Source of the DNA: Acidimicrobiales bacterium
GTDB taxonomy: Bacteria > Actinomycetota > Acidimicrobiia > Acidimicrobiales > SHLQ01
Reading direction: 5' to 3'
NCBI GenBank assembly: GCA_004282895.1
Contig: SHLQ01000013.1
Location: 1 to 32,387 of the forward strand
Length of the DNA stretch: 32,387 nucleotides
Within the stretch, counting starts at the first letter, position 1. Every line of letters begins with the position of its first letter. Below the pieces are notes generated by a model. It was given only the letters and a program-made list of their open reading frames with translations, searched no databases and was not told the DNA's origin. The position numbers and the translations under genes are program-made. Positions 7,088 to 24,799 of this stretch are shown here, in pieces.

Positions 7088-7972
7088 ATGAATCGCCTGG
7101 CGACGGCACCGATCTCCTGGGGGATCTGTGAGGTGCCGGGCTGGGGAGTACAGCTTCCGGTCGATCGGGTGCTTGGCGAAATGTCTCAGCTGGGATTTCC
7201 CGCAACCGAACTCGGCTCCGAGGGTTACCTCCCTTCGGAACCCTTCGAGTTGAACAGGTTGTTGGCCAACTACGATCTCGACCTTCTTGCCGCTTTTGTT
7301 CCACTGGTCGTGCATGAGCACACACTGGCCGACGACACCCTTCGTCGAGCCGATGAAACCGCAGCGCTCCTCGCGGCAGCCGGCGCCACGTACTTCAACA
7401 CCTCGACCGTGACCTCCTACGATTGGGAGCCCCGACGCACTTTGACAGAGGATGAGTGGGCCCACGCGCTGTCGATGCTCGACCGGTTGAGCGAGGTGGT
7501 CGAAGCGCACGGACTGGTTCATGTGCTGCACGAACACATCGACACGATCGTTGAAACGAAGCAAGAGATCCAACGAGTGATCGACGGGTGCAGCGTCCAG
7601 TTCGTGTTGGACACCGCCCACTTCGCCGTCGGCGGGTACGACCCGCTCGAATTTGCGGATGCGTACCCCGACCGGGTCGGACTCGTGCACATCAAAGATG
7701 CAGACCTGTCGGTCGCCGCTCGCCTCAACGCCGGCGAGTGCACCCTGATGGAAGCCGTTCAGCAGGGAATCTTCCCAACCGTCGGGGCGGGCGACCTTCC
7801 GATCGACTCTGTAATACAGTCGCTGGAACGGTCCGGCTTCACCGGGTGGTACGTGCTCGAACAGGACGCGGCAATCACGGGTGAAGAACCAGCCGTTGGA
7901 CAGGGCCCATTGCTCGATGTCGAAACTAGTCTCAACTATCTCAAGAACCTGGAGGTTCGCCTTGCGGCGTGA
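7088..7972 (+). CDS. iolE: IolE-like inosose dehydratase / xylose-isomerase-type TIM barrel
   Basis: It belongs to the AP endonuclease 2 / sugar phosphate isomerase-epimerase family. The N-terminus TAPISWGICEVPGWG closely follows the inosose dehydratase signature, as does the ELGSEGYLP stretch. Metal-binding candidates are in HVLHEHIDT, FVLDTAHFAVGG and VGLVHIKDADL, and a late Glu in WYVLEQD. IolE dehydrates 2-keto-myo-inositol to the trihydroxycyclohexanedione that IolD hydrolyses. At 294 residues it has the usual length. The ATG at 7088 (MNRLATAPISWG) matches family starts; a GTG at 7079 is also possible because GGGGAAA at 7070-7076 is close to both. It is the first gene of the plus-strand run. 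Since related barrels act as epimerases, specificity remains an inference from context. Confidence 0.82.
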   Translation: MNRLATAPISWGICEVPGWGVQLPVDRVLGEMSQLGFPATELGSEGYLPSEPFELNRLLANYDLDLLAAFVPLVVHEHTLADDTLRRADETAALLAAAGATYFNTSTVTSYDWEPRRTLTEDEWAHALSMLDRLSEVVEAHGLVHVLHEHIDTIVETKQEIQRVIDGCSVQFVLDTAHFAVGGYDPLEFADAYPDRVGLVHIKDADLSVAARLNAGECTLMEAVQQGIFPTVGAGDLPIDSVIQSLERSGFTGWYVLEQDAAITGEEPAVGQGPLLDVETSLNYLKNLEVRLAA

Positions 7973-8039
7973 GTGATTCATTTCGCTTGACGAGTCACCA
8001 GGAACTGAGCAACAAAAAAGTCCCAACTAGGAGGGGAAT

Positions 8040-9044
8040 ATGAAGAAGATGCGCTGGCTGGCAGTACTGCTGGCCCTCGTAATGGTCGCAGCCGCATGTG
8101 GTAGCGACGCAGCCGAGGAAACCACCGGTGGCGACACCGGCGGTGACGATGACACCGAAGAAGTTGACGTAGCCCAGAGCGGCGACCTCACCTTCTACAT
8201 GATCACGCACTCTGACGATGGCCCGTTCTGGTCCGTCCTCAAGCGTGGTGCCGAGGCAGCCGCGGCTGATGTCGGCGTCGAAATGGTCTGGCAGGGTTCG
8301 AACAACGACGCCAATGTCCAGGCAGAGTTCATCGACGCCGCTGTGGCCGCTGGTGCTGACGGCATCGGTGCATCACTGCCGAATGTTGACGCGGTCCGGC
8401 CGGGACTCGAAGCAGCTGTTGCTGCCGGCATCCCGGTGTACACCATCAACTCCGGTGTGAACGACTACGTCGACCTCGGCGCAACGACTCACGTCGGCCA
8501 GACCGAGATCATCGCTGGTGAAGGATCCGGTCTCCGCTTCAACGACGCGGGCGCAACCAAGATCCTCTGCGGTCGCCAGGAGCCGGACAACGGTGCGCTC
8601 ATCGAGCGGTGCCAGGGTCTTGCCAACACCTTCAACGGTGAAGTCATCTCCGAATTCATGGACCTCGACGCTGATCAGACGGCTCAGGAAGCGGCCATCA
8701 ACGCTGCTCTGGCCGCCGATCCGGACATCGACGGCTTCATGGGCGTTGGCCCGGTCATCACGATGTCGGGACTCCGCGCTGCGGACGCGCTCGGCCGTGA
8801 CCTGACGATCGGTGGATTCGACATCACGCCAGAACTCCTCGATGCAATCGAGGCGGGCGACGTGATGTTCACCGTGGATCAGCAGCAGTACCTCCAGGGC
8901 TACATCCCCATCATCTTGATGTACCTCGAGGTCACCAACTCCAACACGCTTGGTGGCGGTTTGCCGATCCTCACGGGTCCTGGCTTCGTCACCGGCGACA
9001 ACGCCTCTTCGGTGAAGGCGCTGGTTGAGGCTGGTACTCGCTAG
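8040..9044 (+). CDS. Sugar ABC transporter substrate-binding lipoprotein (Peripla_BP_4)
   Basis: It is a 334-residue periplasmic-binding-type lipoprotein that should capture a sugar or cyclitol outside the cell. A lipoprotein signal peptide (basic MKKMR, hydrophobic core) ends in the lipobox VAAAC with Cys20, followed by an acidic Gly/Asp/Thr-rich linker to about residue 43. The mature part has the ribose/inositol-binding fold signatures DGPFWSVLKRGAEAAAADVG, IPVYTINSGVND and IGGFDITPELLDAI. AGGAGG at 8029-8034 gives a very strong ribosome binding site, suggesting high expression as usual for binding proteins. It is followed by a stable hairpin and then the permease. The ligand is likely a cyclitol given the surrounding enzymes, but the sequence alone cannot fix it. 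Confidence 0.92.
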   Translation: MKKMRWLAVLLALVMVAAACGSDAAEETTGGDTGGDDDTEEVDVAQSGDLTFYMITHSDDGPFWSVLKRGAEAAAADVGVEMVWQGSNNDANVQAEFIDAAVAAGADGIGASLPNVDAVRPGLEAAVAAGIPVYTINSGVNDYVDLGATTHVGQTEIIAGEGSGLRFNDAGATKILCGRQEPDNGALIERCQGLANTFNGEVISEFMDLDADQTAQEAAINAALAADPDIDGFMGVGPVITMSGLRAADALGRDLTIGGFDITPELLDAIEAGDVMFTVDQQQYLQGYIPIILMYLEVTNSNTLGGGLPILTGPGFVTGDNASSVKALVEAGTR

Positions 9045-9128
9045 CACACAATTCGTCGACGGTCGCCTGGCTACCTCATTCGAGGATTCGTCCGGGCGGC
9101 CGTTGACGGTGTAACACAGAGCTAACGC

Positions 9129-9157
9129 ATGGGGTCGGGCTACCGGCTCGGCCCCAT
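9129..9157 (+). promoter_or_regulatory. Intercistronic hairpin between binding protein and permease genes
   Basis: ATGGGGTCGGGC pairs with GCTCGGCCCCAT across a five-base loop, a continuous 12-bp stem with two G-U pairs. Its position just after the binding-protein gene fits a known pattern in which such stems stabilise the upstream mRNA or partly stop transcription, so that binding protein exceeds permease. An ATACGTAT palindrome follows at 9163-9170. Confidence 0.6.
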
Positions 9158-9190: not shown

Positions 9191-11299
9191 ATGTCCGAAA
9201 GTGCCGACACAGCCGACGCCGAGGCGGTCGAGCCACAGTCGAGTGCAGAGAAGGCGCTCGCGGCTTCCGCCGCCGGAGGGGACGAACGGCTCGCCTACCG
9301 CGGCGTGTTCCAACGTCTGTTCGTACGGCCGGAGATCGGCGCGATCGTCGGTGCTGCCGCGATCTGGGCCTTCTTCTGGGCCGTGTCCCGAGAGTTCGGC
9401 ACCGCCGGAGGCGCCGCATCGATTCTCGATGTCTCCGCCACGCTGGGCATCATGGCGGTGGCCGTCTCGCTGCTCATGATCGGTGGCGAGTTCGACCTTT
9501 CCTCAGGCGCCGCCACGGGCACCTTTGCCATCATCACGATCCTGCTGGTGAAAGACGTTGGTGACCTCGGCGGAGCCGGGCTCAGCCTCTGGGTCGCAAT
9601 TCCACTGTCTCTGATCATCGCCCTCGGGCTTGGTTGGGCGAATGGCACGATGGTGGAGAGAACGGCTTTGCCCAGTTTCATCGTCACGCTGGCCACGTTC
9701 TTCATCCTTCGTGGCTTCAAACTCGGTTTCTCGAAGCTCATGATCGACAACCTCACCGTCGGCCGCATCAGCGAAGCCGAGGGTCGTGGATATGAATTCT
9801 GGGAGCCGATCTTCGCGTTTGTGTGGGTACGCAACGACCACCAGCTCGGCATCCGCGATGCGCTCTACACGATCGGGGTTGTCGGAGGCTTGGCACTGGT
9901 TGCCTTCGCACTTGCGGAACTCAGCTTCGTGCGACGCGAGAAGCTGAACTCCGGTGGGGTCCCCGTGCTCGCCGCCGGTGTGGTGGGCGTCGTCGCCGGC
10001 ATTCTGTTCCTCCACAATTCCGATGGCGTCGGCGCGAACACCGTCGGCGCGGTAATCATTGCCGTAGCCGGACTCGCCGCCTTCGTCGGCTTCGGACTGT
10101 GGAGGTTCACCCCCCAGGCCGCTGGCGGAGTGCACATCAAAGACTCCCTTCCGATGTACCTCGGCGGTGGTGTCGTTCTCGTCCTGCTGGGTGCCATTTG
10201 CGCAGTCGCATTCGACGTCGACTCCCAGGAGTCGGTCCTCGACCTTCTCGGCTTCCTGCGGTGGCCGATCATTCTCGCTGTTGGCGGAGGGTTCGCCGCA
10301 CGCGCCTACTTGAGAAACGACAGCGGCCACACCAACACCCTGCAGGCGGTCATCAATGTCGCCAGCATCGGCATTGCCACGGGCTTCGGTGCCTACGCCT
10401 TCATGTTCATGACGACCGAACAGGGTTTGCGCTCGATCCTGTTCGCCGTCTTCGTCCTTGCTGGTCTCGGACTCCTCGGATTGGCAGCGACGCAGGCCGG
10501 ACGGGCATCACCTGCAACCCGCGGCGTGGTTCTCGCCGTCACGGCGATTGCGCTCGCCGGGCTCGCCTTCTTCATTCGGGACCAGTCAGCATCGGAGAAA
10601 TTCCGTTCGGAGTTGTTCGGCGTGCTTCTCGCGACAGCACTGGTGGTCCTCGTGTGGGGAGTCATCAGCACGATGTTCGAACGGCGAACCTCCGATCACG
10701 AAGCCGCCGACAATCTCGGTTCGCTGGTGGCCAAGATCGGTATGGGTGCCATCGCCGTCGGGATGATCGCCAAGATGTTGTTCACTACCGATGACGAACT
10801 GGCCGCCGGGGTTGCCCGGGCCCAGTTCCGAATCAGCATCCTCTGGTTCCTCGGATTTACGTTGTTTGCGACCTGGCTGCTGGGCCGGACCAAGTTCGGC
10901 TCGTGGATATTCGCCGTCGGTGGCAACAAGCAGGCCGCTCGCCAAATCGGCGTTCCGGCGGCCCGAACGAAGACACAGCTGTTCATGATCGTCGCAGTGG
11001 CAGCCTGGCTCGTTGGACTGCTCCTGGCCTTCCGTCTCGACACCGTGCAATCGGTTGCGGGCAACGGCCTCGAATTCGAGTACATCATTGCGGCCGTCGT
11101 GGGCGGAACCTTGCTGACCGGCGGTTATGGCTCCGCATTCGGTGCATCGATCGGCGCAATCATCATGGCGATGTCGAAGCAGGGAATCCCCTCTGCCCGA
11201 TGGAACTCTGACTGGCGATTCGCCTTTCTGGGTCTGATCCTGCTGACCGCGGTGATCGCCAACAACTTCATACGGACGAAAGCGGAGGCATCAAGATGA
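9191..11299 (+). CDS. Oversized sugar ABC transporter permease (RbsC/XylH type)
   Basis: It is a 702-residue BPD_transp_2-family permease. The first 210 residues carry the usual N-terminal half ([31 protein letters not shown]). The last 140 carry the usual C-terminal half, including the cytoplasmic coupling loop [15 protein letters not shown] and [20 protein letters not shown]. Ordinary members have about 320-400 residues. Here roughly 340 residues with some nine or ten additional hydrophobic segments separate the halves. The reading frame is continuous, so this is an insertion rather than an artefact of annotation. A Ser/Ala/Glu-rich N-terminal tail of about 35 residues precedes the first membrane segment. 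The ATG at 9191 is chosen because GGGGGG lies about seven bases upstream; an in-frame TTG at 9170 has none. It overlaps the ATPase gene by four bases. Confidence 0.9.
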
Positions 11300-12090
11300 G
11301 CGATTCAACCCCACTCCTCGAACTTGAGAACATCGGCAAGTTCTACGGAAATATCATTGCCCTGCAGGGTGTGACCACCGAGGTACGCGCGGGGGAAGTG
11401 ACGTGTGTGCTCGGCGACAACGGCGCCGGCAAGTCCACGTTCATCAAGATCCTCGCCGGCGTGCACACTCACGACGAGGGGGTGTTCAAACTCGAGGGCG
11501 AAGAGGTGGGTTTCAACTCTCCCCGCGAGGCGCTCGATCGCGGAATCGCCGCGGTGTATCAGGACCTCGCCATGGTGCCGCTCATGTCAGTGTGGAGAAA
11601 CTTCTTCCTCGGCGCAGAGCCCACCAAGGGTGTCTTCCCAGTTCGTTGGGTCGACAAGCCTTTGGCGAAAGGTATTGCGAAAGAGGAGATGGCCAAAATG
11701 GGCATCGACATTCGCGACACCGAACAACCCGTCGGGACATTGTCCGGCGGTGAGCGTCAGTCCGTGGCGATCGCCCGCGCCGTGTACTACGGCGCCAAGG
11801 TGCTGATCCTCGACGAGCCCACGTCCGCACTCGGAGTGAAGCAGTCCGGGGTGGTGCTGCGCTACATCGTCGAGGCAGCCAAACGTGGCCTCGGCGTGAT
11901 CTTCATCACACACAACCCCGCGCACGCCTTCCCGGTCGGCGACCGTTTCCTGATCCTCAACCGTGGTCAGTCCATGGGCAACTTCGCCAAGGATGAAATC
12001 AGTCAACATGAGCTCACGCGGCTGATGGCCGGCGGCGCCGAGCTCGAGCAGCTCCAACACGAGCTCGAAGCGGCGATCGCCAGCAAGTAA
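11296..12090 (+). CDS. Sugar ABC transporter ATP-binding protein (single-domain, FrcA-like)
   Basis: It is a 264-residue ATPase that powers the preceding permease. Walker A is GDNGAGKST near residue 41, the Q-loop is in [15 protein letters not shown], the signature is LSGGERQ, Walker B is [12 protein letters not shown] and the switch His is in FITHNP. Ribose- and xylose-type importers normally use a tandem double ATPase of about 500 residues (RbsA/XylG). This protein has a single domain, as in the fructose importer FrcA, so it presumably works as a homodimer. ATGA overlap with the permease gene indicates translational coupling, and the PanB-like gene begins five bases after its stop. Confidence 0.94.
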
Positions 12091-12095
12091 CGGGA

Positions 12096-12899
12096 ATGGT
12101 ATCCACGCGTCCGACGGTCGCTGATCTGCTGACGGAGAAGGGCACCCGCCAACGAACCAATGTGTACGTCGACACCCTCGCGGAAGCGCGAGCTGCCGCC
12201 GACGCGGGCATAGACATCATCACTGTCCAGGACAGTCGTATGAGTGCCGAGTACCGGGAGGCGGCGCCCTCGGCGTTCATGGTTGCCGGTCTCGACTACG
12301 GGGTTGTGGTGACGACCGATGACTACCTGCGAGCCGCGTTCGACATGATGCAGTTGGGCGCGGATGCGGTCTGGAGCGCCGCCAGCCTCGAGACCATTGC
12401 CCGGATGCGGGCGGAGGGTGTTCCCGTTGTCGGCCACGTCGGCCTCATCCCCGCACGACGCACGTGGACGGGTGGATTTCGCGCCGTCGGGAAGACCGCA
12501 ACGTCCGCGGCCGAGGTGTTAGCGCAAACCAAGGCACTCGAGGAGGCAGGCGCGTTCGCGGCGGAGATCGAAGTAGTCCCGGCTGCGGTTGCCACGGAGG
12601 TCTCGAGCCGAACCTCGCTCTACATGATTTCGATGGGCTCCGGCGGTGGTTGCGACGCGCAGTATCTCTTCTCCACGGACATTCTGGGGACGAACCGCGG
12701 GCATGTGCCTCGCCACGCCAAGCAGTACCGCGACCTGGCCGCGGAGGAGGACCGACTTCAGTCCGAACGGGTCGCCGCATTCGCCGAGTATGCAGCCGAT
12801 GTGGCGTCTGGTGCATTCCCGGACGAGTCCCGTCTGGTCCCGATCGACGATGGTGAGTTGGCGGCGTTCCGGACAACACTGGACTCGATGGATTCCTGA
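12096..12899 (+). CDS. PanB-like TIM barrel (ketopantoate hydroxymethyltransferase homologue) with altered metal site
   Basis: It is a 267-residue protein alignable without gaps through most of its length to PanB, which makes ketopantoate from ketoisovalerate and methylene-tetrahydrofolate. The GHVGLIP His (H114), the catalytic-type Glu of EIEVVP (E159), the first metal Asp (D46, VQDS) and the C-terminal GHVPRHAKQY motif are retained. Compared with E. coli PanB from memory, the other Mg ligands Asp84 and Glu114 correspond to G65 and A95, and Lys112 to W93. Such changes make ordinary ketopantoate synthesis unlikely. It is translated between transporter and kinase genes, sharing TGATG with iolC, so it probably has a step in the local catabolic pathway, for example C-C bond making or breaking on a keto acid. 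Other PEP-mutase-superfamily chemistry is possible. Confidence 0.72.
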   Translation: MVSTRPTVADLLTEKGTRQRTNVYVDTLAEARAAADAGIDIITVQDSRMSAEYREAAPSAFMVAGLDYGVVVTTDDYLRAAFDMMQLGADAVWSAASLETIARMRAEGVPVVGHVGLIPARRTWTGGFRAVGKTATSAAEVLAQTKALEEAGAFAAEIEVVPAAVATEVSSRTSLYMISMGSGGGCDAQYLFSTDILGTNRGHVPRHAKQYRDLAAEEDRLQSERVAAFAEYAADVASGAFPDESRLVPIDDGELAAFRTTLDSMDS

Positions 12900-13855
12900 T
12901 GCCAACGCCCGAGATCCTGACGATCGGTCGAGTCTCCGTCGACCTGTACGCCGAACAGATCAACGAACCGATGCGAAACGTGACGACCTTTCGCAAGTCG
13001 GTCGGTGGCACGGCAACGAACGTCGCCGTCGCCGCAGCTCGGCTGGGAAGACATGCTGCCTTGGTCACGAAGGTGGGCGATGACCAGTTCGGTGACTACG
13101 TGCAGCACGCACTGGAGCACACGTTCAACGTGGACGCGCGATACGTCTCGACCGATCCCGACCTGCAGACACCTCTGGCCTTTGCCGAGCTCGATCCCCC
13201 CGAAGATCCGTCGATCATCTTCTACCGTTCGCCCCGAGCCCCGGACCTGAACATCGATGCGGCTGACGTGGATGCGGACGTTGTCGCGTCCGTGCCGATC
13301 TTTTGGCTTCCAGCCTCGCGGTTCTCCGATCCGAAGTCGGCAGAAACGGTGACGGAACTGCTGCACCTCCGGAAGCGGAAGTCGCACACCGTCCTGGACC
13401 TCGACTGGCGTCCAATGTTCTGGGAGTCGCCCGAAGCCGCTCGCGAACAGATCGCGCCGATGCTGTCGCAGTTCACAATCGCGATCGGCAACAAGGACGA
13501 ATGTGAGATCGCCGTTGGCACCCGTGACCTCAACGAAGCCGCGGACCGACTGCTCGAGGCCGGTTTGGAAATGGCGGTCATGAAACTCGGCGCGGATGGC
13601 GTGATGATTGCCACCGCCGACGGCGCGCGGGTATCGGTGCCGCCGTATCTCGTCGAGGTCGTGTCCGGACTTGGATCTGGCGACGCGTTCGGTGGTGCGT
13701 TCTGTCACGGGCTCCTCGAAGGGTGGACGCCAGAGAAGATCATCAAGTGGGGAAACGCTGCTGGTGCGATCGTCGCCGGTCGGCTCATGTGTGCGGACGA
13801 CATGCCCACGATCGAAGACATCGAGACGCTGCTTGCCGAGCGGGGGGAAACATGA
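12899..13855 (+). CDS. iolC: PfkB-family carbohydrate kinase, IolC-type (5-dehydro-2-deoxygluconate kinase)
   Basis: It phosphorylates a sugar acid with ATP; in the inositol pathway IolC phosphorylates 5-dehydro-2-deoxygluconate. The N-terminal ILTIGRVSVDLYAEQ and GGTATNVAVAAARLG are typical of IolC, and the PfkB anion hole and catalytic Asp are in SGLGSGDAFGGAF (D262). At 318 residues it is the kinase alone, without the C-terminal DUF2090 aldolase domain fused to IolC in many bacteria. A matching separate aldolase is the last gene of the run (23915-24799). The gene overlaps the PanB-like gene (TGATG) and iolB (ATGA). Assignment is strong from sequence plus neighbours. Confidence 0.88.
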   Translation: MPTPEILTIGRVSVDLYAEQINEPMRNVTTFRKSVGGTATNVAVAAARLGRHAALVTKVGDDQFGDYVQHALEHTFNVDARYVSTDPDLQTPLAFAELDPPEDPSIIFYRSPRAPDLNIDAADVDADVVASVPIFWLPASRFSDPKSAETVTELLHLRKRKSHTVLDLDWRPMFWESPEAAREQIAPMLSQFTIAIGNKDECEIAVGTRDLNEAADRLLEAGLEMAVMKLGADGVMIATADGARVSVPPYLVEVVSGLGSGDAFGGAFCHGLLEGWTPEKIIKWGNAAGAIVAGRLMCADDMPTIEDIETLLAERGET

Positions 13856-14772
13856 TCGAGGAACGACAACTGCATCGTCCGGCGCGATCGCTGGCCAACG
13901 GTACCGATGCGTGTGTGCTGACGCCGGAGGAAGCGGGTTGGACCTACAGCGGCCTGCGCATCGTGCGGATGTCACCGGGCGAGGTTCGCTCGATCGAGAC
14001 CGGAGGCGACGAGTTCGCCGTGTTGCCTCTCAGCGGCGGCACGAGCGCCGTCACCGCAGAGGATACGAGATACGACCTGTACGGACGGGACACCGTCTTC
14101 GCCCGTGTCACCGACTGGGCCTATGTGCCGATCGAGACGACGATGACGATCGAAGCCACCGGCGACCGTCCGGTCGAGCTCGCCCTGTGTTCGGCTCGCG
14201 CCACCCAACGATTCGCTCCGCACTACGGCGCGGCGGAAGACGTTTCGGTCGAGCTGCGAGGCGGTGGTCAGGCGAGCCGCCAGATCAACAACTTCTGTTC
14301 GCCGGAGCAGTTCAGTGGCGCGGAGAAGTTGATGGTCGTCGAGGTGTACACCCCTGACGGCAACTGGTCGTCCTACCCACCGCACAAACACGATGATTCG
14401 CCTGACTGCGAAGTCAACAACGAAGAGATCTACTACTTCCGGATCGGGGATGCGGGCGACACCAACTACACCGAGACCGGGTTCGGCATGCACCGGACGT
14501 ACACGGGGTCTGGGCACGAAGGGCTTCCCGAGATCGACGAGAACGTCGTTGTTCACGACGGCGACGTGTTCCTGATCCCGCGCGGCTATCACGGTCCATG
14601 TATCGCCGCCCCCGGCTACAACATGTACTACCTGAATGTGCTGGCTGGCCCCGGAGGTGAACGAAGTATGGCGTTCTGTGACGACCCCACGCATCACTGG
14701 GTTCGCGATGATCTGAGCAACCAACCAATGGACGCTCGCTTGCCGCTCATGACCTCGGAGGGTCTCTCATGA
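13852..14772 (+). CDS. iolB: 5-deoxy-glucuronate isomerase IolB (copy 1)
   Basis: It is a 306-residue bicupin of the KduI/IolB family, which converts 5-deoxyglucuronate to 5-dehydro-2-deoxygluconate. The metal-binding cluster is visible: two His in SSYPPHKHDDSP, a Glu in NNEEIYYFRI and a further His in LIPRGYHGP. The N-terminal cupin has EEAGWTYSGLRIVRMSPGE. The start ATG overlaps the iolC stop (ATGA), and GGGGGG lies just before it. This copy is the closer of the two to textbook IolB, judging by the YPPHKHD context. A second paralogue lies at 23076-23918. Confidence 0.9.
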   Translation: MIEERQLHRPARSLANGTDACVLTPEEAGWTYSGLRIVRMSPGEVRSIETGGDEFAVLPLSGGTSAVTAEDTRYDLYGRDTVFARVTDWAYVPIETTMTIEATGDRPVELALCSARATQRFAPHYGAAEDVSVELRGGGQASRQINNFCSPEQFSGAEKLMVVEVYTPDGNWSSYPPHKHDDSPDCEVNNEEIYYFRIGDAGDTNYTETGFGMHRTYTGSGHEGLPEIDENVVVHDGDVFLIPRGYHGPCIAAPGYNMYYLNVLAGPGGERSMAFCDDPTHHWVRDDLSNQPMDARLPLMTSEGLS

Positions 14773-16870: not shown

Positions 16871-16989
16871 GGGGTCTGACCCCCTTCAGCCAAAAAGGGG
16901 TCAGACCCCTTTGAATCAAGAACGTTGAAAAATCAGTGGTTTGAAGAAGGGGTCTGACCCCTAATCGGAAAAAGGGGTCAGACCCCTTT
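16870..16989. repeat. Two REP-like inverted pairs built from GGGGTCWGACCCC
   Basis: Four copies of the odd palindrome GGGGTCWGACCCC occur at 16871-16883, 16897-16909, 16949-16961 and 16974-16986, with central base T, A, T, A. Copies 1/2 and 3/4 each form a long inverted repeat (stem about 16 bp) with loops of about 10 bases. The 25-26 base spacing within pairs is nearly constant. It resembles REP/BIME sequences mobilised by RAYT transposases, though no such gene is in the window. It lies wholly between the dehydrogenase stop and the iolD ribosome binding site. Confidence 0.85.
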
Positions 16990-16999
16990 GGAGGACAAG

Positions 17000-18856
17000 A
17001 TGAGCACAATTCGACTTACGACTTCGCAGGCGATTGTTCGGTATCTGGTCGCGCAAAAGTCGGTGCAGAGTGATGGGTCTGTGGCGCCGTTGTTTGGTGG
17101 GGTGTACGGCATCTTCGGGCATGGCAATGTGACGTCGCTTGGGCATGCGTTGGAGCGGGCCAAGGACGAGCTGCCGACCTTTCGTGGGCAGACGGAGGAG
17201 GGCATGGCCCTTGCCGGGGTTGCCTACGCGAAGGCGAAGCGTCGGCGTCAGATCATGGTTGCCACAAGCTCGGTTGGGCCCGGCGCAACCAACATGGTGA
17301 CTGCTGCGGGGGTCGCCCACAGCAATCGGTTGCCGCTGCTGCTGATCAGCGGCGATACCTTCACCAGCAGGATCCCGGATCCGGTGCTGCAACAGGTTGA
17401 ACACTTCAACGACCCGACTCAGACGGTGAACGACAGCTTTCGTGCCGTCAGCCGGTACTGGGATCGCATCACCCGACCGGAACAGCTGACGAGTTCGTTG
17501 CCGCATGCGATCCACACCATGCTCGACCCCGGAGATTGTGGTCCGGCCTTCATCGGCCTTCCCCAGGATGTTGGCGCGGAGGCGTGGGACTTCCCCGAAG
17601 CCTTCTTCGGCGAAACGGTCCACGACATCGCCCGGCCCCGCGCAGACCGGGCGCAGCTCGAGCGGACCGTGGCCCTGCTGCGTTCGGCGGAGAAGCCGCT
17701 CATCGTCGCCGGCGGGGGAGTGCACTACTCGCTGGCCGAACCGGAGCTGGCTGCGTTCGCCACTGCGCACAACATCCCTGTCGTCGAGACCGTCGCCGGC
17801 AAAGCGTGCCTCGAATGGGACCACCCGATGTATGGCGGCCCGATCGGCGTCACCGGCGGCACGTCCGCCAACGCACTCGCCGGTGAGGCAGATGTCGTGT
17901 TGGCCGTGGGTACCCGCCTGCTCGACTTCACGACCGGTTCGTGGACGGTGTTCAAGAACGACGCAGTGAAGATCATCTCGCTCAACACCGCCCGGTTCGA
18001 TGCCACCAAGCGTCAATCGGTTGCTCTGGTCGGCGATGCGAAGGTGACGCTCAACGAGATGACGTCCGCTCTCGGCGACCACCAGGCGTCGGAGGCGTGG
18101 TCGACCACGTTGGCGACCGAGATCGCACAACACAACGCCTATATCGACAAGATCGCGGCAAAGGAGTCGACCAGCGATTCCGGGTTGCCCACGTATGCCC
18201 AGGTGGTCGGCGCCGTCGACCGGATGGCCGATGAGAACACGTTCGCGCTCGCCGCTGCCGGTGGCTTTCCCGGTGAGGTGAACAACGGCTGGCGGGCCAA
18301 ACACCTGAACAGCTTCGATTGTGAATACGGCTACAGCTGCATGGGCTACGAGATCAGCGGCGGTTGGGGCGCCGCGATGGCCATGCCCGACAAGGACGTC
18401 GTCGTCTTCTGTGGCGACGGGTCCTACATGATGCTGAACAGCGACATCTACAGCTCGGTCCTTCACGGCCACAAGATGACCGTGATCGTCTGCGACAACG
18501 GCGGTTTCGCCGTCATCAACCGCCTCCAGACCGGAATGGGTGGCGAGCCGTACAACAACCTGATCAAGGACAACCCGACCGTCGTCAATCCCGTGCCCGT
18601 CGACTTCGCGAAACACGCGGAGGCCATGGGCGCCATCAGCGAAACCGTGACGAGCATCGACGAGCTCGAAGCCGCGCTGGCGCGATCCAAGTCCGCCGAC
18701 CGTACCTGCGTGATCGCACTTGTCACCGATGCCTACAGCTGGACCGAGGGCGGCTCGTTCTGGGAAGTCGGCGTTCCTGAAGTCAGCGAGCTCGACTCGG
18801 TTCTGCAAGCCAAGGCAGACATGGTCGATGGCAAGAAGGAGCAGCGCATTCTGTGA
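17000..18856 (+). CDS. iolD: 3D-(3,5/4)-trihydroxycyclohexane-1,2-dione hydrolase IolD
   Basis: It is a 618-residue ThDP-dependent enzyme that opens the cyclohexanedione ring to 5-deoxyglucuronate, the defining step of inositol catabolism. The N-terminal ThDP Glu is in FRGQTEEGMALAG. The central domain has the PLIVAGGGVHYS stretch, and the Mg/ThDP motif begins GDGSYMMLNSDIYSS at residue 472 and ends at CDNGGFAVINRL. Length and motifs match IolD rather than acetolactate synthase. The ATG at 17000 follows GGAGG (16990-16994) with a five-base spacer; an in-frame TTG at 16988 lies within the ribosome binding site. The palindromic repeats end ten bases before the start. Its first 250 bases use more GGG, TTG and GTT/GGT codons than the rest. 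It overlaps the next gene by GTGA. Confidence 0.95.
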   Translation: MSTIRLTTSQAIVRYLVAQKSVQSDGSVAPLFGGVYGIFGHGNVTSLGHALERAKDELPTFRGQTEEGMALAGVAYAKAKRRRQIMVATSSVGPGATNMVTAAGVAHSNRLPLLLISGDTFTSRIPDPVLQQVEHFNDPTQTVNDSFRAVSRYWDRITRPEQLTSSLPHAIHTMLDPGDCGPAFIGLPQDVGAEAWDFPEAFFGETVHDIARPRADRAQLERTVALLRSAEKPLIVAGGGVHYSLAEPELAAFATAHNIPVVETVAGKACLEWDHPMYGGPIGVTGGTSANALAGEADVVLAVGTRLLDFTTGSWTVFKNDAVKIISLNTARFDATKRQSVALVGDAKVTLNEMTSALGDHQASEAWSTTLATEIAQHNAYIDKIAAKESTSDSGLPTYAQVVGAVDRMADENTFALAAAGGFPGEVNNGWRAKHLNSFDCEYGYSCMGYEISGGWGAAMAMPDKDVVVFCGDGSYMMLNSDIYSSVLHGHKMTVIVCDNGGFAVINRLQTGMGGEPYNNLIKDNPTVVNPVPVDFAKHAEAMGAISETVTSIDELEAALARSKSADRTCVIALVTDAYSWTEGGSFWEVGVPEVSELDSVLQAKADMVDGKKEQRIL

Positions 18857-19806
18857 AACGCGTGGCAGTGATCGGTGCAGGAGGTATGGGTCGCTTCCAC
18901 GCGGAAACGCTGATCGGCCTCCCCGGCGTCGAACTCGCCGCAATCGCCGATCCGTTTCCCCATCCGGACCTCGATCGCCTAGCCGTACCGGTCACGACCG
19001 ATGTACACGCATGCGCATCGGAAGGCTGGGACGGTGTGGTGATTGCCTCGCCCGACCAAACCCATGCCGCGCTCACCCTCACTGCGCTCGATGCCGGCAG
19101 TCGGGTCTTGTGTGAGAAGCCGCTGTCGCATGACCTGGCCGGTGCCAGAGCGGTGATCGCCAAGGAAGTCGAGCTCGGCGAACGTCGGGTGCAGGTGGGT
19201 TTCATGCGCGAGGTCGATCCGGCCCACGCCGCCTTCGCGGAAGCGCTGCCCGACCTCGGCGAGCTGCACTACCTGCGGTGCACCCATCGAAACACGAATG
19301 CCGAAGCGCGCTCACCGGAGACCGTGGTCGTGCAATCACTCATTCACGACATCCACACCGTGCATTGGTTGGGCGCGACCGTGGTCGATGTGGACGCGCG
19401 CACGATCCCTCGCCCGGGTGGGCTCATGCACGTCTTGTTGGTGTTGCGCCTTGCGTCCGGCGCCACCGCCACCGTCGAGTTCAGCGACGAAACCTATGCC
19501 TATGAGGTGGAGGTTGAGGCCACCGCGGCTCGGGGCATGATCACAACCTCCGCGCCGGCTCGGCCACGCCTGCGGATCGATGGCGACCACCGAACACCCA
19601 TCGGCGACGACTGGTTCGGGTGGTTTGCTGACGCGTATCGAGTGCAGGATCGCCTATGGGTCGAGTCCCTGCACGGGGATGCAATGGGGCCCACCGCCGC
19701 GGACGGGTTGCGGGCGCAGCTGGTGGCGGAGGCCGCACTTGCTTCCATCGCCTCGGGCGGTCCCGTCGATGTTGCGTCATACGATCCGCCGGAGTTGTAC
19801 CGATGA
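18853..19806 (+). CDS. GFO/IDH/MocA oxidoreductase (dehydrogenase 2)
   Basis: It is a 317-residue NAD(P)-binding dehydrogenase of the inositol dehydrogenase family. The Rossmann motif is VAVIGAGGMGRFHAE and the EKP motif is LCEKPLSHD. The active-site region SLIHDIHTVHWLG carries the His/Asp pair. It is shorter than the other two family members here and its C-terminal sheet is diverged, so a different substrate or stereospecificity is likely. The start is GTG, overlapping the iolD stop (GTGA). The stop overlaps the desaturase start (ATGA), so it is tightly coupled to the oxygenase. It might oxidise the product of that oxygenase, which is inference from position. Confidence 0.86.
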   Translation: MKRVAVIGAGGMGRFHAETLIGLPGVELAAIADPFPHPDLDRLAVPVTTDVHACASEGWDGVVIASPDQTHAALTLTALDAGSRVLCEKPLSHDLAGARAVIAKEVELGERRVQVGFMREVDPAHAAFAEALPDLGELHYLRCTHRNTNAEARSPETVVVQSLIHDIHTVHWLGATVVDVDARTIPRPGGLMHVLLVLRLASGATATVEFSDETYAYEVEVEATAARGMITTSAPARPRLRIDGDHRTPIGDDWFGWFADAYRVQDRLWVESLHGDAMGPTAADGLRAQLVAEAALASIASGGPVDVASYDPPELYR

Positions 19807-21215
19807 CCGCACTGGCCACACGTGATTACGCCCTGGACGGCACGGAGTCCCGTCGCGCGGTCGACCGGGGTCTCGCCGACGCCGAATGGTTCCAGGCCGA
19901 TATCGATCCGGCCACGTTGCGCGAGCTCACCGTTCGCCAGAATCTGCGGCCCGCCCTCGACATCATCCTGTGGCTCGCCCTGATCTTCGGGTTCGGCGCA
20001 CTCGCGTGGAGCCTCCGGGGCAGTTGGTGGGCGCTTCCCGCGTTCTTCGCGTATGGCGCGCTCGTCGGTGGATCCTCGGATGCCCGCTGGCACGAATGCG
20101 GCCACGGAACCGCCTTTCGCAGCCAGTGGCTGAACGACCTGATCTACTACCCGGCCAGCTTCATGCTCGCGAGGGAGGCGACCTACTGGCGTTGGTCGCA
20201 CTTCCGCCACCACACCGACACGATCATCGTCGGTCGGGATGCGGAGATCATCTTCCCTCGACAGCCATCGGTCGGCCGTCTCGTATGGATGTTCACCCAT
20301 ATCCAGGGCGGGTCCACGTTGATCTGGACCACGGTGAAACACGCCATGGGTCGGTCGGACGCCAACGTCGAGGTGCTTGTGCCCGAACAGGAGCGCGGGC
20401 GGGTCTTCTGGGAGGCCCGGGTCTACGTGCTGATCTGGACGGCAACGATCGTCTGGGCGATCGCGACCGCGTCGTTCTACCCGTTGCTTCTCATCGGCGG
20501 GCCGACGATCTACGGCGCCTGGCTGGTGCTCTTCTTCGGGGTGACCCAACATGCTGGGCTCAAAGAGGATGTGCTCGACCATCGCAAGTCGACCCGCACA
20601 GTGCTGATGAACCCGATCTTCCGGTTCCTGTATCTGAACATGAACTACCACATCGAACATCACATGTTTCCCGCCGTGCCGTACTACAACCTGCCGCGAC
20701 TGCACCGCGAGATTCGGGATCAGCTGCCTGAGCCGATGCCGAACACCGTGGCCACCTACAAGGAGATCGTCCACGCGTTTCGGATGCAGGCGCAGGATCC
20801 GACCTGGGAACTCCCACGCGAGATCCCGGATGCACCGGGACACCGAGGTCCGATCGTGCAGGGTTTCGAATGGGTGGGGGAGAAGGCGTTTGGTGACGGG
20901 TTCGACCTGGGACCGGCCGACCTTGCCGATGGCGAGATGCGTCCCGTGGAGATTGACGGCGTGTCTCGGTTGGTTGTTGCCGCCGAGGGCGAGATCTTCC
21001 TCGTCGATCGAGTCTGCACCCATGGCGACGCGGACCTGAGTGCGGGCATCGTGCTCGGCTGTGAACTGGAGTGTCCGAAGCACAATGGCCGATTCGATCT
21101 GCGCACCGGCGAGGGCACCCGCCGCCCGATCAAAGAGGCGTTGGCCACCTACGAGATTCGAATTCGCGCCGGTCGGATCGTCTTCGACCATCACCAAAAC
21201 GAAAGCAACTCATGA
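19803..21215 (+). CDS. Fatty-acid-desaturase-type membrane diiron oxygenase fused to a Rieske ferredoxin domain
   Basis: It is a 470-residue fusion. Residues about 50-330 are a desaturase/alkane-hydroxylase-type membrane enzyme with hydrophobic segments and the diiron His boxes HECGH (97-101), HFRHH (133-137) and HIEHH (283-287). Residues about 375-470 are a Rieske-type [2Fe-2S] ferredoxin with C405-x-H407 and C424-x2-H427 (ECPKH). The ferredoxin presumably feeds electrons to the diiron centre, needing only a reductase from elsewhere. Such enzymes desaturate, hydroxylate or oxidatively demethylate. ATGA overlaps on both sides place it inside the cyclitol operon, where no such enzyme belongs in the standard pathway. 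The start at 19803 overlaps the previous stop; longer frames upstream are noncoding. Substrate unknown. Confidence 0.88.
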   Translation: MTALATRDYALDGTESRRAVDRGLADAEWFQADIDPATLRELTVRQNLRPALDIILWLALIFGFGALAWSLRGSWWALPAFFAYGALVGGSSDARWHECGHGTAFRSQWLNDLIYYPASFMLAREATYWRWSHFRHHTDTIIVGRDAEIIFPRQPSVGRLVWMFTHIQGGSTLIWTTVKHAMGRSDANVEVLVPEQERGRVFWEARVYVLIWTATIVWAIATASFYPLLLIGGPTIYGAWLVLFFGVTQHAGLKEDVLDHRKSTRTVLMNPIFRFLYLNMNYHIEHHMFPAVPYYNLPRLHREIRDQLPEPMPNTVATYKEIVHAFRMQAQDPTWELPREIPDAPGHRGPIVQGFEWVGEKAFGDGFDLGPADLADGEMRPVEIDGVSRLVVAAEGEIFLVDRVCTHGDADLSAGIVLGCELECPKHNGRFDLRTGEGTRRPIKEALATYEIRIRAGRIVFDHHQNESNS

Positions 21216-22216
21216 CCACTCCAACCATCGCCGTGCTGGGTACCGGACGAATCGGCAAGATGCATGCCGAACTGATCGCCCGCCAAGTCCCGGGCCTGGA
21301 CCTTGACGCGGTCTACGACGTGTTCACCGAAGGAGCGCAGGCGGTTGCGGACGAGCTCGGTTGCCGACGGGCGGAGAGTATCGAGGAGGTCATGGCCAGC
21401 GATGTGGATGCCGTGGCGATCTGCTCGAGCACGGACACCCACGTGGATCTGGTGGTCGCCGCGGCCGAGGCCGGCAAGGCGATATTTCTGGAGAAGCCGG
21501 TGTCGCTGAATCTCGAGGAGGTTGATCGTGCCGTTGCGGCCGTGAAGTCGACGGGCGTTCCGATTCAGATTGGATTCAACCGCCGATTCGACGCCGCCCA
21601 CGCAGCCGTGAAACAGGCGGTTGCCGACGGGTCGGTCGGAGACGTGCACATGGTCAGGATTACCAGCCGGGACCCGGCCCCGCCTCCGATCGAGTACATC
21701 AACGTGTCGGGTGGGATCTTCTGCGACATGACGATTCACGACTTTGACATGGCCCGCTTCGTGACCGGGAGTGAAGTGGTCGAGGTGTATGCCAGGGGAG
21801 CGGTGCGGGTCGACCCGGCCATCGGTGAAGCCGGCGACGTCGACACTGCGGTGGTGATGATGACACACGAGAACGGAGCAATCACCACAATCGACAACAG
21901 CCGGCAAGCCGTCTACGGCTACGACCAGCGAGTCGAGGTGTTTGGGTCCGGCGGCATGGCGGTGTCGGAGAACCCGAGGGAACACACCACGGAGATTCAT
22001 ACCGCCGACGGCACGCGGCAACAGAACATCCCGTACTTCTTTCTCGAGCGGTACATCCCGAGTTACCTCGCCGAGTGGAGCGGGTTCCTGGACGGGCTCG
22101 CATCAGGCACGATGCCGGTCACGATCGAGGACGGCCGGGCGCCGCTCGTGATCGGACTGGCGGCCTGGAAGTCGGTACGTGAAGATCGCCCCGTGAAGAT
22201 CTCGGAGATCGGCTGA
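21212..22216 (+). CDS. iolG: myo-Inositol 2-dehydrogenase IolG
   Basis: It is a 334-residue member of the GFO/IDH/MocA family and the best match here to bona fide inositol dehydrogenase, which oxidises myo-inositol to 2-keto-myo-inositol with NAD+. The Rossmann motif is VLGTGRIGKMHAE, the EKP motif is FLEKPVSLN, and the active site has Lys of EKP with Asp/His in FCDMTIHDFDMARF. IolG-like signatures IGFNRRFDAAH, RDPAPPPIEYI and NSRQAVYGYDQRVEVFGS are all present. The ATG at 21212 overlaps the oxygenase stop (ATGA), and its stop shares a base with the SDR start (TGATG). Specificity for other inositol stereoisomers is possible. Confidence 0.91.
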   Translation: MTTPTIAVLGTGRIGKMHAELIARQVPGLDLDAVYDVFTEGAQAVADELGCRRAESIEEVMASDVDAVAICSSTDTHVDLVVAAAEAGKAIFLEKPVSLNLEEVDRAVAAVKSTGVPIQIGFNRRFDAAHAAVKQAVADGSVGDVHMVRITSRDPAPPPIEYINVSGGIFCDMTIHDFDMARFVTGSEVVEVYARGAVRVDPAIGEAGDVDTAVVMMTHENGAITTIDNSRQAVYGYDQRVEVFGSGGMAVSENPREHTTEIHTADGTRQQNIPYFFLERYIPSYLAEWSGFLDGLASGTMPVTIEDGRAPLVIGLAAWKSVREDRPVKISEIG

Positions 22217-23079
22217 TGGACCAAACGCTCAATCCTGCACAGCCGTACGGGTATGCATCGTTCGAGGGCAAGGTCGCCGTCATAACGGGTGGGACCCAGG
22301 GGCTCGGTTACGCGACCGCGGAACTGATGAAAGCGCGTGGTGCGGCAGGTCTCGTCCTGGTCGGTCGCACCGTCTCGAAGGGCGAGGCCGCGGCCGCGGC
22401 CTTGGACGGCGGTGGCTGCCGGGCCGTCTTCCATGCCGCCGACCTGCGCAATGATGCCGACGTTGCCGGAGTCATCGAGCGGGTCGATGCCGAATTCGGC
22501 ACCGTGCACGCGTTCGTGAACTGCGCTGCTGCCACCTGGCGTGGCACGGTGTGGAACACCACGGCCGAGATGTGGGACGAAATGCTAGGGATGAACGTCA
22601 AGATGCCCGCGTTGCTCGTTACCGGTCTGGCGCAGATCATGAAGCGCGAACATGTCGCGGGTGCGATGGTGCTGATCAGCTCCATCGCTCATCACGGCGG
22701 TAATGAGGTCCTGTGGCCCTACTCCACTGCCAAACATGCACTCGAAACACTCGTCAGAAGTGCGGCCTTCTCACTGATGCCCGAACACATTCGCATCAAT
22801 GCGGTCAATCCCGGCTGGATGGATACACCAGCCGAGCATGAGACGCAGCAGAGGTTTCACGACGCACCCGCGGACTGGCTCGTGGAGGCCGAGGCCAGCC
22901 AACCGTGGGGTCGCCTGCTCAAACCGCCCGAGGTTGCACGCAGCATCTGCTTCCTCGCATCCGACGAATCAGGGATGATGAGCGGAACATCCGTGGATCT
23001 CGATCAGACGATTCCTGGTACGGGTAACCTGCCTCGACCAGCCTCTGTCCCCGAGCACTACCCGTGGGAGAACCAATGA
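22216..23079 (+). CDS. Short-chain dehydrogenase/reductase
   Basis: It is a 287-residue classical SDR. The cofactor motif is ITGGTQGLG, the helix alpha-4 motif is VNCAAA in place of the usual NNAG, the catalytic Ser is in LISSIAHHGG and the catalytic pair is in YSTAK. INAVNPGWMDTP and a C-terminal SGTSVDLDQ complete the fold. The related enzymes oxidise sugars, cyclitols and their keto forms. It overlaps iolG by one base and iolB copy 2 by four, so it is part of the same translation chain and may interconvert an inositol or inosose stereoisomer. Its precise reaction is not determinable. Confidence 0.87.
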   Translation: MDQTLNPAQPYGYASFEGKVAVITGGTQGLGYATAELMKARGAAGLVLVGRTVSKGEAAAAALDGGGCRAVFHAADLRNDADVAGVIERVDAEFGTVHAFVNCAAATWRGTVWNTTAEMWDEMLGMNVKMPALLVTGLAQIMKREHVAGAMVLISSIAHHGGNEVLWPYSTAKHALETLVRSAAFSLMPEHIRINAVNPGWMDTPAEHETQQRFHDAPADWLVEAEASQPWGRLLKPPEVARSICFLASDESGMMSGTSVDLDQTIPGTGNLPRPASVPEHYPWENQ

Positions 23080-23918
23080 GCTCTGACCCCGTAGACATCG
23101 TTCGCAACACCGGCGGCCCCGGGGTGCGGGTTGAGATCACCCCGGAATCTGCCGGCTGGACGTATCTCAGCTTCTCTGTTGTTTCCCTTGGCGACGGTGA
23201 GTCCCACTCCGATGTTCGCGAAGGTCAGGAAACGGCCATCGTTCCGCTCGCCGGAAAGGCATCGATTACCGCCGGCGCCGAAACGTTCACGGTCAGCCGC
23301 GAGAGTGTGTTCACCGAGATGCCACACATCGTCTACGCACCTCCGGGCGCGCCCATGACGGTGGTCGCCGATGGTGGCTTCGAGTTCGCGATCGGCTCTG
23401 CGCCGGCCGAGGGCAAGTATCCCGTGCGTCTTATCGAGCCCTCCATGATGAAGAGCGAGGTGCGAGGAGGAGGCGCAGCACGCCGTCAGGTCAATCACGT
23501 GCTGGCTCCTCCGATCGACGCCGAGCGGCTGATCCTCTACGAGGTGTACGTGCCCCGCGGAACTTGGTCGGGGTGGGCTCCACATCGACATGACGGTGTC
23601 GAAGGATCGCCCTACCTCGAAGAGACCTACTTCTTCCGTCTGGACCCGGGTGATGGGTTCGCCATGCACCGCAACTGGGCGCCCGAGGACGATATGGACG
23701 AGATCCTGCTCGCCCATGATGGTGATGTTGCACTGGTGCCCAAGGGGTACCACTCGAGCGTCGCCTGTCCGAGCTCGCACATGATGTTCCTCAATTATCT
23801 CGCGGGTGAACTGGTCGACAAGGACCGCATCACCCCGCCGTGTTTCCACGAGGCCTATACCTGGATCCAAGACGATTGGGAGAAGGACAGCTGGACACTG
23901 CCCGTCACAGCACCATGA
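23076..23918 (+). CDS. IolB-like bicupin isomerase (copy 2)
   Basis: It is a 280-residue IolB/KduI-family paralogue of the gene at 13852. The metal-site residues are retained: two His in GWAPHRHDG, a Glu in YLEETYFFRL and a His in LVPKGYHSS. The rest is clearly diverged and about 26 residues shorter. Retention of the site argues for an active isomerase with a different or narrower substrate rather than a decaying copy. The ATG at 23076 overlaps the SDR stop (ATGA); an in-frame GTG at 23064 lies within the SDR. It overlaps the aldolase gene at its end. Confidence 0.85.
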   Translation: MSSDPVDIVRNTGGPGVRVEITPESAGWTYLSFSVVSLGDGESHSDVREGQETAIVPLAGKASITAGAETFTVSRESVFTEMPHIVYAPPGAPMTVVADGGFEFAIGSAPAEGKYPVRLIEPSMMKSEVRGGGAARRQVNHVLAPPIDAERLILYEVYVPRGTWSGWAPHRHDGVEGSPYLEETYFFRLDPGDGFAMHRNWAPEDDMDEILLAHDGDVALVPKGYHSSVACPSSHMMFLNYLAGELVDKDRITPPCFHEAYTWIQDDWEKDSWTLPVTAP

Positions 23919-24799
23919 TGCTCACCCCTGGCAAGGCCCGGGGACTCGACACCCTCACCACCGATGTCGGCGTCTTCGCGGTGTTGGCGATCGATCATCG
24001 AGACTCACTTCGCGCGGCTGTCCCGGGTGAACCGACCGATCCGGAGCTCACGGATTTCAAACTCGAGCTGCTGCGGATGATCGGAGATCGTGCCAGCGGC
24101 GTCATGCTCGAACCGGAGCTGAGTCTGCCACAGGCCATAACCACCGGGAGTCTCCCGGGAACCGTGGGCTTCATGGCGGCGCTCGAGGCTCAGGGATATC
24201 TCGATGATCCGTGGGCCGGCCCAACGATGATGCAGCCGGGGTGGACGGCGCTCGATGTGAAGAAGATGGGCGCCAGCGCGGCCAAGTTGTTGTTGCCGCT
24301 CAGCCCCGAACGGCCGGGCCACGCCGAACAGCAGGAGAAGATCGTCCGGGACAACGCGGCGTTGTGCACCGACCTCGATCTGGCGTTCCTCGTCGAACCC
24401 GTCGCCTTTGGGATGGAAGACGCCGTCCGACCCCCGACCGTGCTCGATGCGGCGCGTCGGCTCACGGGCACTGGTGTGGATGTGCTGAAGCTGGAGTTCC
24501 CGGGTGATCCTGCTCGTCCCGAGGAATGGGCCGCTGTGTGTGCCGCAATCACCGAGGCCGCAACGGTGCCATGGGTGCTGTTGTCCTCCGGTGTCAGCTT
24601 CGACACCTACGCTCAGCAGCTCCAGGTCGCCTTCGACAACGGTTGCTCCGGGTTCACCGGCGGCCGAGCGCTGTGGGGTGAGGCAGCCAAAGCGGATCGA
24701 TTTGGGCGGACGGCGATCATCCGTGACACCGTTGTTCCCCGCTTCGAGCAACTCCGTGATCTCGCCAACGACCGGGCCAGACCATGGCGCGAGGTCTGA
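23915..24799 (+). CDS. LacD/DUF2090-type class I aldolase, probable IolJ-role enzyme
   Basis: It is a 294-residue TIM-barrel aldolase related to tagatose-1,6-bisphosphate aldolase, sulfofructose-phosphate aldolase and the DUF2090 domain fused to many IolC kinases. VFAVLAIDHRDSLR is the family N-terminal signature. The Schiff-base Lys is expected at K192 in VDVLKLEFPGD, and SSGVSFDTYAQQLQ and GFTGGRALWGEA are the phosphate-site strands. In this context it would split the phosphorylated product of IolC into DHAP and malonate semialdehyde, the reaction of IolJ. It ends the plus-strand run, four bases from the convergent HAD gene. The start is ATG 23915 (ATGA overlap) or the adjacent ATG at 23918. 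Confidence 0.84.
   Translation: MMLTPGKARGLDTLTTDVGVFAVLAIDHRDSLRAAVPGEPTDPELTDFKLELLRMIGDRASGVMLEPELSLPQAITTGSLPGTVGFMAALEAQGYLDDPWAGPTMMQPGWTALDVKKMGASAAKLLLPLSPERPGHAEQQEKIVRDNAALCTDLDLAFLVEPVAFGMEDAVRPPTVLDAARRLTGTGVDVLKLEFPGDPARPEEWAAVCAAITEAATVPWVLLSSGVSFDTYAQQLQVAFDNGCSGFTGGRALWGEAAKADRFGRTAIIRDTVVPRFEQLRDLANDRARPWREV

Follow-up and report, generated by a model that had tools for sequence, protein, structure and literature searches.

Candidate O-methyl-inositol operon with a fused MocD-MocE oxygenase and a PanB-like protein in an Acidimicrobiales bacterium

The rhizobial mocDEF genes have been described, in the passages cited here, within the catabolism of 3-O-methyl-scyllo-inosamine (PMC10107442, PMC3538637), and their role in rhizopine catabolism is already known (PMC10107442, PMC3538637, PMC6668481, PMC11387232). 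Pinitol, ononitol and other O-methyl inositols are widespread in legumes, as the cited part of one paper states (PMC8730688). In the open-licence literature, to which our literature searches refer throughout, little was found on the breakdown of O-methyl inositols by bacteria, and a word search of the main text of a large survey of iol clusters returned neither Acidimicrobiia nor pinitol nor O-methyl compounds (PMC9430895). In nicotine breakdown, according to the cited passages, a demethylating enzyme is followed by FolD and PurU (MABO-FolD-PurU; PMC3891541). Here we describe sixteen genes on a contig of an Acidimicrobiales bacterium (GenBank assembly GCA_004282895.1, contig SHLQ01000013.1; its whole length of 32,387 nucleotides is called the window below), which belongs to a 3.48 Mb genome of 316 contigs that is 85% complete. 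Judged from their sequences, these genes probably form an operon for O-methyl inositols that comprises uptake, O-demethylation by a fusion of MocD and MocE (MocDE), one-carbon disposal with a PanB-like protein, funnelling of stereoisomers and the inositol core. The locus is thus a candidate for a complete O-methyl-inositol pathway encoded in one operon.

The gene run and its fused oxygenase

The plus strand from 7088 to 24799 carries, in this order, genes for an IolE-like protein, a sugar-binding lipoprotein, a permease, an ATPase, a PanB-like protein, IolC, IolB, a 2-hydroxyacid dehydrogenase, a first GFO/IDH/MocA dehydrogenase (GFO1), IolD, a second GFO/IDH/MocA dehydrogenase (GFO2), the oxygenase, IolG, a short-chain dehydrogenase/reductase (SDR), a second IolB and an aldolase. 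An earlier interpretation made from the DNA letters alone, referred to here as the sequence-only reading, had counted sixteen same-strand genes that mostly overlap, and every one of them is present. Start and stop codons overlap at 10 of the 15 junctions, eight times by 4 bases (seven ATGA and one GTGA) and twice as TGATG, while the other five junctions have short gaps of 5 and 2 bases and longer ones of 67, 146 and 129 bases. The run is found again in relatives, with protein identities of about 40-93%, and therefore lies far beyond chance.

The oxygenase gene (19803-21215) overlaps the start and stop codons of its neighbours on both sides. Its product of 470 residues has a fatty-acid-desaturase domain (PF00487, 130.8 bits) of the membrane diiron type followed by a C-terminal Rieske ferredoxin domain (PF00355, 46 bits), and what had been read as a Rieske-fused diiron oxygenase proves to be one chain in which a homologue of the desaturase-type MocD is joined to one of the Rieske ferredoxin MocE. 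The moc proteins used for comparison were those of the Rhizobium johnstonii and S. meliloti cassettes, not those of strain L5-30; with the mocD-mocE-mocF cassette of the R. johnstonii plasmid pRL11, the desaturase part shares 46% identity with MocD over 336 residues and the Rieske tail 40% with MocE over 67 residues. The histidine motifs HExGH, SHxRHH and HxEHH, as well as CTH and CPKH of the Rieske domain, are invariant in alignments of 8 and of 18 rows (18 of 18, window included). An AlphaFold2 model of moderate quality (mean predicted local distance difference test score, pLDDT, 78.9) is helical over the first 330 residues and ends in a beta domain; Rieske ferredoxins of aromatic dioxygenases match it best in structure, and the fold search is informative mainly for the Rieske domain.

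Relatives of the fusion were sought in a genome-collection scan, where the closest named ones come from Acidimicrobiales metagenome genomes, and flanks were fetched for the best 80 of 568 confirmed relatives. These comprise 44 MocD-MocE fusions, 16 stand-alone MocD proteins and 20 MocD-MocE fusions with a C-terminal tail of 279-300 residues, in which a reductase NAD-binding domain (PF00175) was detected in all four tails scanned. The existence of double and triple fusions supports the view that MocD and MocE are functional partners, and the fusions argue, as far as domain architecture can, that the Rieske domain and the reductase serve the diiron site. The 20 triple fusions, from Verrucomicrobiota, Acidobacteriota and Bacteroidota, are one-chain proteins of about 750 residues and are perhaps self-sufficient oxygenases; at one of their loci a PhyH gene comes next.

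The oxygenase also keeps close company with iolD. Among 296 genomes of the class Acidimicrobiia, 14 give MocD-domain matches of at least about 200 bits and 44 have IolD (E up to 1e-150); nine genomes have both, eight of these in a single cluster (hypergeometric p 1.9e-5, uncorrected for kinship). IolD was found in the fetched flank of 22 of the 80 MocDE loci, and in 21 of the 23 loci that have both, counting the window, the two genes are separated by no more than about 1 kb, measured from open-frame limits. As a control, 29 iol loci without MocDE were fetched from the 36 class genomes that have IolD and no MocDE in that cluster (one of the 29 comes from a genome that carries MocDE pieces on other contigs), and 26 passed the filter, three being dropped with an IolD under the 45% cut. 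The contrast is a rough one, being drawn with identity cuts to the window proteins, with many loci ending at contig ends and with the MocDE loci as the closer relatives. With and without MocDE, respectively, GFO1 was present in 22/23 and 15/26 loci, the 2-hydroxyacid dehydrogenase in 19/23 and 12/26, IolG in 22/23 and 8/26, the SDR in 11/23 and 8/26, GFO2 in 6/23 and 2/26, the second IolB in 20/23 and 6/26, the aldolase in 20/23 and 7/26, and the PanB-like protein in 4/23 and 0/26. Whether the additional enzymes are conserved with iolD thus has a divided answer: the oxygenase is, the four dehydrogenases are also found without the oxygenase, and the PanB-like protein is in few of these loci, yet it accompanies mocD and mocE in distant bacteria. 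Since the extra dehydrogenases occur in iol loci without MocDE, they are not tied to the oxygenase, and general stereoisomer handling fits them better than demethylation; the idea that all the additional enzymes are specific for demethylation was rejected on these grounds. The proposal of the sequence-only reading that they trim the substrate before it enters the inositol core therefore suits the oxygenase and is too broad for the others.

The inositol core was judged against NCBIfam curated cut-offs. Those exceeding them are the trihydroxycyclohexane-1,2-dione hydrolase IolD (17000-18856; TIGR04377, 828.6 bits over 715), which is the single IolD over the cut-off in its genome, the inositol 2-dehydrogenase IolG (21212-22216; TIGR04380, 429.7 over 355), the kinase IolC (12899-13855; TIGR04382, 344.1 over 300) and both copies of the isomerase IolB (13852-14772 and 23076-23918; TIGR04378, 280.8 and 224.5 over 205). 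Below their own cut-offs are the PanB-like protein, GFO1, the LacD/DeoC-type aldolase (23915-24799; PF01791, 60 bits; NF009498, 169.1 against 184) and the IolE-like TIM barrel (7088-7972), an inosose dehydratase homologue that, with 154.6 bits against 290 for TIGR04379, is a homologue only. The full route from IolG through IolE, IolD, IolB and IolC to the aldolase, as first claimed, accordingly stands for IolG, IolD, IolC and IolB, the second IolB included, and is weaker at the IolE and aldolase steps. One IolA gene over its cut-off (TIGR01722, 672.2 bits over 448.5) lies outside the window, on another contig of the same genome.

The PanB-like protein and a probable one-carbon link

The gene at 12096-12899, initially taken for a PanB homologue, does encode a protein with the PanB fold and of the PanB Pfam family (PF02548, 144.6 bits), but its scores with two PanB models (130.6 against 272 and 107.8 against 207.55) are far under both cut-offs and it belongs to a separate group in trees. 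All 28 best structural matches of its model (mean pLDDT 72.9, moderate) are PanB. In a tree of 41 PanB-type proteins, 18 moc-linked rows, which were labelled by linkage or identity before the tree was built and include three (from genomes G008, G071 and G275) not shown beside MocD, are separated from the rest by a branch with support 100/98. With 13 further rows from plasmid loci all 31 remain together (97/91), the R. hidalgonense protein inside the group and the R. lentis protein basal to it, both on long branches; another PanB of the Acidimicrobiales genome clusters with the ordinary rows. Twelve ordinary PanB rows carry the motifs VGDS, D(M/L)P(W/F) and (V/I)K(L/I)EGG and an LE(G/M)xP-type glutamate, which we take to represent D45, D84, K112 and E114 of the Escherichia coli enzyme, contacting metal and keto acid, and its base E181. 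In the moc-linked rows, KxEGG and the DxP aspartate are lost in 18 of 18 and the aspartate of the VGDS column is kept in four, and the glutamate of the LExxP column is kept in all. Other PanB-like groups with neither the ordinary motifs nor a known moc link were also seen, one of them in a class family of small genomes.

Within the class, PanB-like matches of at least 53% identity occur in 5 of the 296 genomes, each of which is also one of the 14 MocD genomes (p 1.1e-7, uncorrected; four come from one family), and the group as a whole accompanies mocD and mocE in both Actinomycetota and Pseudomonadota. On rhizobial plasmids a PanB-like gene whose product is 58-64% identical directly follows mocD-mocE-mocF, as in the order LacI|mocD-mocE-mocF-PanB-like of S. 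meliloti 2011 pSymB. Twelve PanB-like loci, selected for variety from 60 listed rows of 251 records, include MocD in 10, MocE in 11, MocF in 11 and purU in 6; 3 have a FolD match, which is partial in one of them. The order in Mesorhizobium huakuii is mocD-mocE-reductase-PanB-like-purU-folD, and in Nitratireductor purU follows mocDEF at the usual place of the PanB-like gene. At two loci the set has rhizopine-catabolism genes as neighbours, encoding a MocA-type dehydrogenase, a sugar-binding protein and a pyridoxal-phosphate (PLP)-type regulator, and purU comes next; a third, in R. hidalgonense, encodes a fatty-acid-hydroxylase-type protein, an ABC (ATP-binding cassette) transporter, MocE, a TIM barrel, the PanB-like protein, an IolG-type protein, MocF, PurU and FolD, and no MocD. 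In one class genome the 7 kb upstream of iolE contain a purU match on the opposite strand, a PanB-like gene and a gene for a PhyH protein. Together, these linkages of mocDEF, PanB-like, purU and folD genes suggest that the methyl group is removed as a one-carbon unit and that the PanB-like protein belongs to that arm, which points to an overlooked protein accompanying demethylation. In the open-licence literature no paper was found that connects mocDEF or the demethylation of inositols with purU or a PanB homologue, nor were the fusion within an iol operon, the triple fusion or the link of PanB-like, purU and folD genes found in print.

What the PanB-like group might catalyse can be proposed tentatively. 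Its gene linkage suggests that formaldehyde could be condensed with a reduced pterin, and it is conceivable, if doubtful, that the group is a tetrahydrofolate-dependent formaldehyde-capturing enzyme that would have lost the keto-acid half of the PanB reaction, kept the methylene-tetrahydrofolate half and fed FolD and PurU. In the cited part of their paper, He et al. describe the uncatalysed condensation of formaldehyde with tetrahydrofolate as too slow for effective assimilation, weigh PanB as a possible promiscuous catalyst and consider that a formaldehyde-activating enzyme accepting tetrahydrofolate might exist; deletion of panB and ltaE left the growth of E. coli unchanged, a result that concerns ordinary PanB and not the moc-linked group (PMC7073904). 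If the proposal holds, a dedicated enzyme loads formaldehyde onto tetrahydrofolate, which is now a testable question.

Proposed pathway and competing explanations

From which genes are present, how they are ordered, which families they belong to, and how they are conserved and linked, we infer the reactions, substrate and electron donor of the following pathway. O-methylated inositols, for example ononitol, pinitol, sequoyitol or quebrachitol, would be imported by the CUT2 ABC transporter, which consists of a sugar-binding lipoprotein (8040-9044; PF13407; nearest solved chain 4ru1), a permease (9191-11299; PF02653 in two stretches) and an ATPase (11296-12090; PF00005). MocDE would then hydroxylate the O-methyl group, the Rieske domain handing electrons to the diiron site, and the resulting hemiacetal would release formaldehyde as it breaks down to free inositol. 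The PanB-like protein would take part in one-carbon disposal, most likely on tetrahydrofolate, with the mycothiol formaldehyde dehydrogenase encoded elsewhere in the genome as an alternative outlet. IolG, the two other GFO/IDH/MocA proteins and the SDR (22216-23079; subfamily model NF004847, 303.9 bits over 240) may oxidize and re-reduce stereoisomers to give 2-keto-myo-inositol, which the IolE-like protein, IolD, IolB, IolC and the aldolase would open and cleave, leaving malonate semialdehyde to the IolA encoded elsewhere. GFO1 (15698-16870) resembles levoglucosan and scyllo-inositol dehydrogenases (NF052479, 298.1 bits against a cut-off of 650; solved relatives 6a3f and 5ya8), and GFO2 (18853-19806) matches PF01408 with 68.1 bits and is well below the cut-offs of the IolG models. 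The D-2-hydroxyacid dehydrogenase (14769-15695; PF02826, PF00389) was also considered as a formate dehydrogenase ending one-carbon oxidation, which is not favoured, the match being minor (147.4 of 329). The sequence-only reading had envisaged a modified cyclitol that is trimmed before the core; its O-methylated version appears probable in view of the MocD-MocE fusion, the linkage to iolD and the rhizobial purU and folD neighbours, whereas its deoxygenated version is unsupported.

Several observations weigh against this pathway, some of them against its one-carbon arm. None of the cited moc passages gives O-demethylation by MocD as a finding. A MocF-type ferredoxin reductase was found neither in the run nor in the 85%-complete genome (no match to PF14759), and at two loci MocDE homologues 60% identical to the window protein stand without iol genes, so that the MocDE family is not confined to inositols. 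The PanB-like gene is absent from 19 of the 23 loci with IolD and MocDE in the stretches fetched; it is present in 9 of the 80 MocDE loci, namely 3 of 44 fusions, none of 20 triple fusions and 6 of 16 stand-alone proteins, and genomes G008, G071 and G275 carry it at places not shown to adjoin MocD or MocDE, while the R. lentis locus has the PanB-like gene, MocF and purU but neither MocD nor MocE. Neither purU nor folD occurs in the fetched stretches of the 23 loci, PurU over its cut-off was not found in the 85%-complete genome, and the mycothiol-dependent formaldehyde dehydrogenase of that genome could dispose of formaldehyde alone. The three ordinary PanB motifs are seen in none of 42 other rows of the larger set, 11 of which have no known moc link; the loss of the motifs therefore predates that link and is by itself no proof of a one-carbon role.

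There are also other explanations of the locus. The substrate could be an amino-cyclitol, the rhizopine 3-O-methyl-scyllo-inosamine or scyllo-inosamine, as the MocD-MocE fusion would allow and as the best NCBIfam match of the binding lipoprotein, the rhizopine-binding model NF052284, seems to say. That match reaches 188.9 bits against a cut-off of 420, however, and with the same model a binding protein taken from a rhizopine-type locus scores just 45.4, so that the name of the model carries little weight and a substrate deduced from it is weakened. Among the window proteins scanned, to which this search was limited, there is no MocR-type regulator with a PLP domain, no aminotransferase and no other deaminating enzyme, and we regard rhizopine as a distinctly unlikely substrate. 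It is rather improbable, too, that MocDE acts on methylated sugars or another natural product and that the substrate of the operon is sugar-like instead of an inositol; iol-free relatives of MocDE adjoin an aldose epimerase, a ROK kinase or a TIM barrel (10 neighbours scanned) and GFO1 resembles levoglucosan and L-glucose/scyllo-inositol dehydrogenases, but IolG, IolD, IolB and IolC stand in the same run and the spacing of iolD and MocDE in relatives is tight.

The same closeness to iolD, along with the start and stop overlaps on both sides of MocDE and its moc-cassette relatives, makes it very unlikely that the additional enzymes merely widen the range of unmethylated stereoisomers while the oxygenase serves something unrelated such as lipid desaturation, even though the dehydrogenases are also found in iol loci without MocDE and the oxygenase belongs to a fatty-acid desaturase Pfam family. 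As for the PanB-like protein, its fold and Pfam family are those of an ordinary ketopantoate hydroxymethyltransferase, which might sit in the operon by chance. We find this scarcely credible and have rejected a pantothenate role on cut-offs, motifs and trees: it scores under both PanB cut-offs, KxEGG and DxP are lost, another PanB of the genome groups with the ordinary rows, and the linkage to mocDEF, purU and folD is recurrent. An O-methyl-inositol operon remains the explanation that we prefer.

Surroundings and comparison with known systems

Upstream, a PhyH-type oxygenase of the Fe(II)/2-oxoglutarate family (6034-6900, minus strand, with a likelier start at ATG 6879; PF05721, 78.3 bits) had been placed divergently at the head of the run; it is present on the minus strand, just outside 7088-24799. 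In two related genomes, counterparts 71.7% and 70.6% identical lie about 1.2 kb from iolE in divergent orientation, and another PhyH type accompanies iol loci both with MocDE (three loci) and without it (three). Possibly the PhyH protein is a further oxygenase that trims the substrate. Between the GFO1 and IolD genes, the gap is filled by four copies (16866-16990) of a palindromic 22-mer of the AAAGGGGTCAGACCCCTTT type with strong RNA folding (z -9.2). This 22-mer is an interspersed repeat, often paired 25 bases apart; its 15-base core has 92 forward and 87 reverse matches genome-wide, which overlap because the core is nearly palindromic, against none for the reversed control.

The window further contains a selenocysteine tRNA gene (5756-5851) just before the operon, with a SelB homologue over its cut-off in the genome, and a gene (4123-5736) for a protein in which an N-terminal Rieske domain is combined with a glutamate-synthase-type domain. 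Downstream are a Tad-pilus-like set (26390-29448) with a type II/IV secretion ATPase, T2SSF and a TadE protein, and an HD-domain protein with a C-terminal bacterial immunoglobulin-type domain (29517-31124).

Compared with the rhizobial mocDEF genes and their LacI-linked sister cassette (S. meliloti 2011 pSymB, R. johnstonii pRL11), the window has homologues of MocD and MocE with intact metal motifs, and a PanB-like gene of the group that stands directly downstream of mocDEF there. Unlike in rhizobia, MocD and MocE form a single chain, the run shows neither MocF nor a regulator, and the setting is an iol operon with its own transporter. With bacterial iol clusters for myo-inositol it shares IolG, IolD, IolB and IolC over the curated cut-offs, and it differs from them by a second IolB, two GFO/IDH/MocA proteins, the SDR, the 2-hydroxyacid dehydrogenase, the oxygenase and the PanB-like protein, with the IolE-like protein and the aldolase below cut-off. 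The PanB-like protein is like ketopantoate hydroxymethyltransferase in fold, Pfam family and the LE(G/M)xP glutamate, but proteins of the window type lack KxEGG, DxP and VGDS, are about 20 residues shorter near the N-terminus and form a separate tree group. Finally, folD and purU stand after mocDEF in M. huakuii as they do in the MABO-FolD-PurU set, whereas the moc sets include a PanB-like protein and their methyl source would be an O-methyl cyclitol.

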